Origin: Candidatus Cloacimonadota bacterium | GTDB lineage: Bacteria > Cloacimonadota > Cloacimonadia > JGIOTU-2 > B8-G9 | NCBI GenBank assembly: GCA_003647765.1 | Contig: QMNM01000141.1 | Coordinates: 1-5,035 of the forward strand | DNA: 5,035 bases | Reading direction: 5' to 3' | Shown here: piece by piece, positions 466 to 4,717 of the stretch | Numbering within the stretch: the stretch's first letter is position 1 | Layout of the letters: each line of letters begins with the position of its first letter | Position numbers and translations under genes: made by a program | The notes under the pieces: generated by a model | The model's database searches: none | The model's input: the letters and a program-made list of their open reading frames with translations, nothing else | What the model was told of the DNA's origin: nothing

Positions 466-3048
466 ATGAGAAAAAAAATAATTTCTTTTTTATCTTGTAC
501 TTCTAATGTCTTTTTATTATCTTGTTTTCTTGTCCTCTTGTTTTCTTGTCCTCTTGTCCTCTTGAACTCTTCTCTATTTGCTAAACAGATTGACCCGTAT
601 GAGAGTCAATTAGACATCAATCGTGCCAGTTTAGAGGACATCAAAACATTACCTATTACTGATAAACAAGCAGAAGAAATATATTATTATCGTGAATATA
701 TCAAATTCTACACCAGCATATACGAATTGAACAAGTTAGAAAGTATGGACCAAAAGACATTTGATAAGATAAAGCCGTTGATAAAGGTCTCTTTTTATAC
801 TGATTACGATGAAACTGCAAAACGAAAAGATGAGATATATTATCTAATTCGTAGATTGGCTTCTAATGAGGGTTTGCAAGAGGGCATATCTGATATTTGG
901 GAGGACTTGCTGATTACACCGATGAATATCAATAAGGTCTACTATCGCGATATTCTCAATATGCCAAATGTCTCTCCTGTTGATGCTATGGCTATTGTCA
1001 AGCAGAGGAAATTTGACCGTATTGGTAGTTATCGTGATTTACGACACTCACCAGGACTTTCTCATTACGGTGCGACAAATCTTAAACATTATATCACTTA
1101 TGAAGATAGAGAGGACAATAGATTCTATTTCAATTATCAATTCAAATATGATACTAATGCTTATCAAGATGAAATAAAGGAGATGTTTCAAGAAACGATT
1201 TATAAGAATTATTTCAACCTAAATGATAATAGTCCAGAAATGTCTCATAAAATACGCACAAGAGTAGGGGATAAATTTAGATTTCAGGCATTGATATTTA
1301 ATAAAAAAGGGGAAGAATCCATAAAGAAAATATCTGATTATAACGACTTTTCCAAAACATTTGCAGAAGTAAAATTGTCATTTGTTAAATCAAAATTTAT
1401 TTTAGGAAATTATAGAGTTGCTTATGGACAAGGGCTTGTGATGGAAAATACGGACTATTACGAATTCCGTAAAACTGGGTTTGGTTTTTCTAAAAGGATT
1501 CTTGGTATTACAGGCGATATTTCAAAAACAGAAGAATTCGCTCTAAAAGGTAGTGCGGTTGAATTTAGTAATAGATTTCTTAATACTTCTATTTTCTATT
1601 CCATAGATGACAAAGATGCAATTGTATATGACAGTAATAATAATGGCATATTAGATGCTGATGATTATGTGTTGACTTATGTTATATCTCGTCCCAGATT
1701 CAATAATGATGAGATGGAAAAAGCCGAATCCTATTATGATAATGTTGACATTGCTCCGCGCAGAGATGCAGTCAGAGAGAAATTATTAGGCGGTCATTTA
1801 GAATTTTCTCCACTTGTTGGAACTCATCTTGGTTTTACTGCCTATGAAGCACAATATAATCGGGAGTTTGTGATTCCATATAAGGACTCTTTAGATAGGT
1901 TCCTCATATACGATTCTGACGATTATAAAAAGTTAAAAATGCCAGATACTGAAATTTCATCTTTATATAGTACATATAAGTCAGGAGAGTATGACCGTAA
2001 TTATCGTCGTGTTTATGGCTTTGACTGGCAGACAGTTCTTGGTAGCACATCTTTTCAAGGAGAATATGCTGAACTTGAAATAGATGGCAAAATAAGTAAA
2101 TTAGGTGATGACCCAAAAGCCGTTATATTAAGCAATTATACTCAGTTTGAGAATTTAAACTTTTTAATTCTCTATCGTAATTATGATTTGGATTTTGATA
2201 ATCCTTATATGCGTGGGTTTTCGGAAAAAAAGAGATTTGAGGATACAATATTTGAAAGGTATACTTATGTTCTTAAAAATCCATTGTTAGGCGAATTATA
2301 TAATAATTCTGCTTCTTCTCAACCAGAAGAGGGAGTTTATTTTCAAACGCGATATCAGTTCAGCAGACACTTTACATTAACAAAAGCATATTTGGATGTA
2401 TGGGAGCGGAAATGCGACCATAGAAAAAGTGTCCGCTTTCAGGCGGAACTTGATTATCGTCCAATATATCAGGTTAGTTTGCGACTGAAACAGAAGTTGC
2501 AAACCAATCGTTATGATGATACCCAAGCAAGATCAGTTTCTAAAACCAGTGAGACCACTACAAAAGCTAGAATTTATCTTACTAATCGTGATATGTTGCA
2601 AATAGCATATTTTTACGCACAAACTTGGCAACCACCATATACTTATCTTACAAATAATGCTGAGCCAAATCAAGATTATCATGCAACTGGCAATGTATTA
2701 AGTCGCGCAGATTGTATTGTAACAAACTATACGCATAATTTCAGTGATAATCTTCGTATAGAAGGCAGTTTTCTTTTCTGGAATAGTACTGGTGGAACAA
2801 TCTGGGATTGGGAAGATACTGGAATTGACTTTATGGGAGAGAGTGGAATGAAATATTGGTTCACTATTTACAATCGTATTTCTAACAATCTTACGGTCTC
2901 CTTCAAATATAAAGTTAAGCATTATAAGGACAGAGAATTATATTATCGCAAATGGTGGAATGATGAACTTGATGAAGGAATAGATTATGTTCCGCAGACA
3001 AAAAGAAATGATAATTCATTCAGGATACAATTGGATTGGAGTTTTTGA
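466..3048 (+). CDS. Secreted helix-hairpin-helix protein with C-terminal outer-membrane beta-barrel
   Basis: An 860-residue protein. Residues 1 to about 41 form a signal peptide: MRKK, then a long hydrophobic stretch, then NSSLFAKQ. Residues 49-108 (LDINRASLEDIKTLP...) and about 155-212 (MNINKVYYRDILNMP...) are two helix-hairpin-helix regions of the ComEA type, a fold that typically binds DNA backbone without base specificity. From about 218 to the end the sequence alternates polar and aromatic residues (FYFNYQFKY, FILGNYRVAYGQG, LSFKYKVKHY) and ends in LDWSF, the aromatic C-terminus typical of outer-membrane barrels. Residues 389-400 (DSNNNGILDADD) match an EF-hand/dockerin-like calcium loop, probably in a barrel loop. 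GGAG at 452-455 supports the ATG at 466; the next in-frame Met is residue 94, which would lose the signal peptide. Cysteines at 20 and 28 follow LLS and LFS and could mimic a lipobox, but they lie within a DNA repeat. Inference: the HhH part is periplasmic and the barrel is membrane-embedded. A DNA-uptake or envelope role is possible but unproven. The architecture call is firm; the function is not. Confidence 0.88.
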   Translation: MRKKIISFLSCTSNVFLLSCFLVLLFSCPLVLLNSSLFAKQIDPYESQLDINRASLEDIKTLPITDKQAEEIYYYREYIKFYTSIYELNKLESMDQKTFDKIKPLIKVSFYTDYDETAKRKDEIYYLIRRLASNEGLQEGISDIWEDLLITPMNINKVYYRDILNMPNVSPVDAMAIVKQRKFDRIGSYRDLRHSPGLSHYGATNLKHYITYEDREDNRFYFNYQFKYDTNAYQDEIKEMFQETIYKNYFNLNDNSPEMSHKIRTRVGDKFRFQALIFNKKGEESIKKISDYNDFSKTFAEVKLSFVKSKFILGNYRVAYGQGLVMENTDYYEFRKTGFGFSKRILGITGDISKTEEFALKGSAVEFSNRFLNTSIFYSIDDKDAIVYDSNNNGILDADDYVLTYVISRPRFNNDEMEKAESYYDNVDIAPRRDAVREKLLGGHLEFSPLVGTHLGFTAYEAQYNREFVIPYKDSLDRFLIYDSDDYKKLKMPDTEISSLYSTYKSGEYDRNYRRVYGFDWQTVLGSTSFQGEYAELEIDGKISKLGDDPKAVILSNYTQFENLNFLILYRNYDLDFDNPYMRGFSEKKRFEDTIFERYTYVLKNPLLGELYNNSASSQPEEGVYFQTRYQFSRHFTLTKAYLDVWERKCDHRKSVRFQAELDYRPIYQVSLRLKQKLQTNRYDDTQARSVSKTSETTTKARIYLTNRDMLQIAYFYAQTWQPPYTYLTNNAEPNQDYHATGNVLSRADCIVTNYTHNFSDNLRIEGSFLFWNSTGGTIWDWEDTGIDFMGESGMKYWFTIYNRISNNLTVSFKYKVKHYKDRELYYRKWWNDELDEGIDYVPQTKRNDNSFRIQLDWSF
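521..564 (+). repeat. Octanucleotide tandem repeat (CTTGTYYT, 5.5 copies) inside the signal-peptide coding region
   Basis: Units read CTTGTTTT, CTTGTCCT, CTTGTTTT, CTTGTCCT, CTTGTCCT, then a final CTTG. They encode about residues 19-33 of the large gene with an eight-residue period (SCFLVLLF / SCPLVLLN). Eight is not a multiple of three, so gain or loss of one or two units shifts the frame before the mature protein; three units restore it. Confidence 0.9.
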
Positions 3049-3050
3049 AT

Positions 3051-3078
3051 GCGTAGTGCGTAGTGTGTAGTGCGTAAG
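3051..3078 (+). repeat. Heptanucleotide tandem repeat downstream of the large gene
   Basis: Four 7-base units start two bases after the stop codon of the large gene: GCGTAGT, GCGTAGT, GTGTAGT, GCGTAAG. The two G/C-containing exact copies are conspicuous in this AT-rich spacer. No hairpin or T-run of terminator type is visible. Its role is unknown; it resembles low-complexity intergenic repeats rather than a binding-site array. Confidence 0.75.
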
Positions 3079-3933: not shown

Positions 3934-3984
3934 ACAAAAAGAAATGATAATTCATTCAGGATACAATTGGACTGGAGCTTTTGA
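3934..3984 (+). pseudogene. Duplicated 3' end of the large outer-membrane gene (copy A)
   Basis: These 51 bases match the last 51 bases of the large gene (2998-3048) at 49 positions and retain the codons for TKRNDNSFRIQLDWSF plus the stop. The two differences (T3036/C3972 and T3042/C3978) are third-position transitions that leave Asp and Ser unchanged. Upstream, TTG-CCA (3928-3933) in the same frame may be a diverged remnant of the Val-Pro-Gln codons. It has no start or ribosome binding site and is a scar, not an expressed gene. Confidence 0.9.
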
Positions 3985-4677: not shown

Positions 4678-4717
4678 TTATATTATCGTAAATGGTGGAA
4701 TGATGAACTTGACGAAG
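4678..4717 (+). pseudogene. Fragment of the large outer-membrane gene near its 3' end (copy B)
   Basis: These 40 bases match 2938-2977 of the large gene at 38 positions and keep the codons for LYYRKWWNDELDE. Both differences (C2949/T4689 in Arg CGC/CGT, T2973/C4713 in Asp GAT/GAC) are synonymous. The frame is closed directly upstream by TAG (4675-4677) and continues only to TAA 4738-4740 with unrelated residues, so it is a non-expressed remnant. It sits just downstream of the VapC gene. Confidence 0.88.

Follow-up and report, generated by a model that had tools for sequence, protein, structure and literature searches.

An octamer array in the leader codons of an exported 860-residue protein of a Cloacimonadota bacterium probably belongs to a lineage-specific family of dispersed (TCTTGNNN)n repeats, mostly intergenic, one member of which has lengthened a signal peptide. 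The window, by which we mean the whole stretch of 5,035 nucleotides that was analyzed, is a contig (C167) of a 1.97-Mb assembly in 360 contigs. Its features are collected in Table 1, together with the arrays of the same family that lie inside genes.

Table 1. Features of the window (first five lines) and octamer arrays found inside genes of the same genome (remaining lines).
Feature	Position	Strand	Basis or remark
Exported 860-aa protein: ComEA-type helix-hairpin-helix, then strand-rich region, probable beta-barrel	466..3048	+	ORF, Pfam, relatives, model
Signal-peptide codons 1-39 (MRKKIISFL-array-NSSLFA)	466..582	+	N-termini of relatives, alignment, GRAVY; longer than the leaders of relatives, which are short
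Probable upstream continuation of the array in degenerate TCTTGTAC and TCTTTTTA units	491..519	+	Sequence reading; weaker Tandem Repeats Finder period-24 call at 485-560
Octamer array TCTTGNNN	520..564	+	Tandem Repeats Finder, period 8 x 5.6 and period 16 x 2.4; units TTT, TCC, TTT, TCC, TCC, then start of an AAC unit
HHH_3 domain, residues 47-106	604..783	+	Pfam PF12836, 49 bits (cut-off 27), E=6e-13
Array in window gene, signal peptide			Sense strand
Array in C25 peptidase, not in a leader			Sense strand
Array in YjeF_N/Carb_kinase protein, linker	L073 (contig C4) 10510-10561		In-frame insertion
Array in histidine kinase, C-terminal tail
Array in DHH protein (DHH phosphoesterase), C-terminal tail
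Array in YlxR-family protein, C-terminal tail
Array in SprA-type protein			Three units only; may be chance
Array in kinase gene on contig C95	L093 5585-5668

The array of the window is made of TCTTG followed by three variable bases, and with three unit types it is imperfect: Tandem Repeats Finder scored 83% matches for it at a period of 8 and 100% at a period of 16. It probably continues upstream, in older and degenerate units, as far as about position 491. The original prediction had placed an octamer repeat in signal-peptide codons, read the leader as hydrophobic and the gene as presently switched on, and reckoned that changes of one or two units, unlike a change of three, would close the frame. 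All of this is borne out. The array lies in frame within the open reading frame, where it encodes roughly residues 18-34 of a leader with the sequence MRKKIISFLSCTSNVFLLSCFLVLLFSCPLVLLNSSLFA; a GRAVY of +2.23 was obtained for residues 5-33; and the frame is open over its 860 codons as read. When units were removed or added computationally, the reading frame remained open for 852, 860 or 868 residues at 3, 6 or 9 units, and reading ended after 27-44 residues at 2, 4, 5, 7, 8 or 10 units, so that only multiples of three among the counts tried keep the gene open.

The host gene is widely conserved in the phylum. A search of 98 genomes gave matches to its protein in 92, a count that includes its own genome; the nearest has approximately 60% identity and comes from the same order. 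The protein was also considered as a ComEA and rejected as such: it scored 32 bits with TIGR01259 against a cut-off of 152, and only the helix-hairpin-helix domain (PF12836) is held in common. A low-confidence AlphaFold model (mean pLDDT 39, from an alignment of five sequences) is rich in strands after about residue 210, and on this model an outer-membrane beta-barrel is plausible. The leader of the window gene differs from those of its relatives, with an insertion of 18 columns and a further short one in the alignment (A1). Among 29 distinct relatives whose N-termini were inspected, a few of them incomplete or extended, we did not find the repeat peptide in the leader; most have a leader of ordinary length that ends near ...FA, ahead of a conserved (Q)LDLN motif. 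From the recurrence of the ...FA motif, the cleavage site of the signal peptide would lie at the corresponding place in the window protein.

The octamer is far from confined to this gene. Four TCTTG motifs at 8-base spacing matched 171 times in the genome, whereas a reversed control pattern matched nowhere, and the arrays are therefore beyond chance. The CTTGTYYT form gave 24 matches on 12 contigs; one and the same unit thus occurs at many unlinked sites. The four-motif pattern was matched once among 123 further genomes from the phylum. An unbiased sample of 283 kb, taken from the 20 largest contigs, held 10 arrays of at least three units, which extrapolates to approximately 70 arrays per genome. 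Tandem repeats as a class are dense in this sample (18.0 per 100 kb, as against 7.2 in stretches from 20 relatives, a 2.5-fold difference), and a TGCGTAR heptamer family, to which a repeat just behind the host gene also belongs, is common alongside the octamer. Separately, we observed that 9 of 24 arrays on contigs outside the 20-contig sample lie no more than 250 bases from a contig end (contigs C115, C123, C152, C166, C21 and C72), and arrays of this kind therefore probably break the assembly. A phage carrier of the family is not indicated: five stretches of viral contigs have the octamer pattern, in flanking DNA that is GC-richer and unrelated. The flanking sequence of the window was absent from the viral contigs searched for variant copies. 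In one viral contig (L114, 140-203), likewise GC-richer and of unrelated DNA, a TCTTGTCC-type octamer array adjoins another 8-base tandem repeat.

Most members of the family lie between genes. By greedy ORF calling, a rough stand-in for gene annotation, 27 of the 35 annotated arrays (25 of them from contigs picked for carrying one) were intergenic and eight lay inside a gene or at a gene end, even though coding sequence makes up approximately 89% of the sampled bases and non-coding sequence 11%. Before correction, 10 of the 35 had overlapped an open reading frame; arrays at the called starts of purQ and recG were then rejected as coding, because in both the homologous part, with a Pfam-supported start, begins downstream of the array. 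The arrays inside genes sit mostly at sites that tolerate insertions, namely linkers, protein tails and the signal peptide of the window gene. In the YjeF_N/Carb_kinase protein, for example, the alignments of most relatives break at about residues 222-248, where the array sits. Two of the eight are read in the sense direction; the other six, most of which sit in linkers or tails, are antisense. The CTTG strand of units of the TNN kind yields hydrophobic peptides (GRAVY +1.75 to +2.74) and the other strand hydrophilic ones with many K, R, Q and E residues (-1.25 to -3.5, all negative), which agrees with where the in-gene arrays sit.

On the explanation that we favor, an array of this family either formed within the hydrophobic core of the signal peptide or moved into it, and by insertion or local expansion would have given the longer leader. 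It would have been tolerated, and would persist there, because in all three frames the sense strand of TCTTGTYY is free of stops and codes for a hydrophobic peptide (SCPLVLLS and SCFLVFLF, for example). Its unit number can probably drift by slippage or unequal duplication in steps of 8 or 16 bases, with a mutability that we take to be low or modest, and any such change would switch the gene off or on incidentally.

Features of the arrays themselves bear on how they have grown. Identical pairs of units within arrays numbered 376, as compared with a mean of 210 and a maximum of 284 in 3,000 shuffles of the pooled units. Identity between units two apart was raised as well (49 versus 38, P=0.01), and that between units one or three apart was not. 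The likeness within arrays and the raised identity at lag 2 together suggest that the arrays grew locally in 16-base blocks. Consistent with this, the array of the window can be written as (TTT TCC)x2 + TCC, that is, one duplication of 16 bases, which is perfect, and another of 8 bases. Steps of 16 and of 8 bases each break the frame, and to judge from the unit order the gene may therefore have been off at some time in the past. The same order could also result from point changes that turned TTT into TCC or the reverse, or from an array that had grown while still non-coding.

Could the array instead be a dedicated switch, a contingency locus of the opa type at which slippage in the leader turns an outer-membrane protein reversibly off and on under selection for variation? 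The original prediction raised this possibility, and we consider it doubtful. In Neisseria opa, CTCTT repeats code for part of the leader peptide and slippage shifts the frame, with switching measured at about 1e-3 per cell per generation (PMC3960869). The window has the same architecture, a short, pyrimidine-rich tandem repeat in the 5' coding region, in the leader codons of a (here probable) outer-membrane protein, with a unit length that is not a multiple of three and a copy number that sets the frame; the steps by which the array appears to have been built, neither of which keeps the frame alone, also speak for a switch. On paper, then, the array would work like an opa leader repeat. However, opa has pentamers and measured switching, whereas the unit here is an imperfect octamer, present in few copies and dispersed through the genome, and switching is predicted from the frame. 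Frequent slippage calls for a long, largely perfect repeat, but this one has 5.6 units, 83% matches and three unit types, and we would expect it to slip rarely. A gene conserved in most genomes of the phylum is, moreover, atypical for a variable surface antigen. It also tells against a dedicated locus that the octamer occurs genome-wide and mostly between genes, and that where it does enter genes these include such housekeeping proteins as those of the YjeF_N/Carb_kinase, YlxR and DHH phosphoesterase kinds. One finding named in advance as refuting phase variation had two parts, homologues that lack the repeat altogether and a static insertion in the present copy; the first part is what the 29 inspected relatives present in this gene.

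Another member of the family, on contig C95, offers a parallel. The array there lies at the very junction of two open reading frames, for a protein kinase (409 residues) and a TPR protein (840 residues), which are in different frames. In relatives, the kinase's closest homologues are each encoded by a single open reading frame of about 1,820-1,860 residues, and parts of the open reading frames that follow the C95 kinase match the homologous region of these in order. Given that the homologues are undivided and that the array sits at the split, the array may have broken the frame of the C95 gene, which would favor the opa-type reading for the window as well. But the split gene has a second break further downstream, and decay of the gene is for this reason an equal reading to switching.

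A broader proposal is that the family as a whole constitutes a genome-wide source of switchable frames, of which the leader of the conserved helix-hairpin-helix outer-membrane protein would be one switch, arrived at independently of Neisseria opa; we judge this improbable. That the arrays function as DNA or RNA (in transcript stability, coupling or protein binding), with the placement in the leader incidental, is very unlikely: they are dispersed and mostly intergenic, and 19 of the 20 intergenic arrays with called neighbors on both sides lie between co-directional genes, but such gaps already make up 80% of the background, the strand of the array relative to those genes is mixed (8 same, 11 opposite), so that these 20 arrays have no clear bias of strand or gene orientation, and array length and distance to genes range widely.

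Dispersed families of short tandem repeats are known elsewhere. The heptamer families of Xanthomonas and Nostoc (GGGNATC) are spread over the genome and over-represented in non-coding DNA (PMC4692102), as are the short tandem units of the cyanobacterial STRR repeats, for which a function as DNA or RNA has been proposed (PMC2670836). The TCTTGNNN family resembles both in that one short unit of 7-8 bases recurs genome-wide and mostly in non-coding DNA. Unlike them, it is not G-rich, it has some arrays inside coding sequence, and it belongs to one of the 124 Cloacimonadota genomes searched. In Haemophilus influenzae, the octanucleotide repeats ATTATTTG and GCATCATC may take part in phase variation (PMC2651432); they share the eight-base unit with the window family but, as described, lie upstream of genes, at few loci and with no dispersed family. 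A literature search on tandem repeats and phase variation in Cloacimonadota returned nothing relevant.

What the lengthened leader means depends on whether the arrays vary. If they do, the genome of this lineage would contain a scattered reserve of frame switches, its contingency loci having come from the spread of one repeat and not from growth gene by gene. If they are static, an intergenic repeat would have been absorbed into a signal peptide, one of its strands happening to encode hydrophobic residues. In either event, a repeat in a leader is by itself no evidence of phase variation before the genome-wide background is known.

Finally, we note that the 3' end of the host gene recurs twice downstream, with positions 2998-3048 matched at 3934-3984 (96% identity) and positions 2938-2977 at 4678-4717 (95% identity). 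The copies flank two blocks of small genes, which encode a DUF4258-like protein, a DUF2283 protein and a PIN-domain protein with a small upstream partner. It is as if cassettes of small genes had been inserted downstream with duplication of the end of the host gene. Just past the stop codon, at 3050-3076, is a tandem repeat of the heptamer TGCGTAG.
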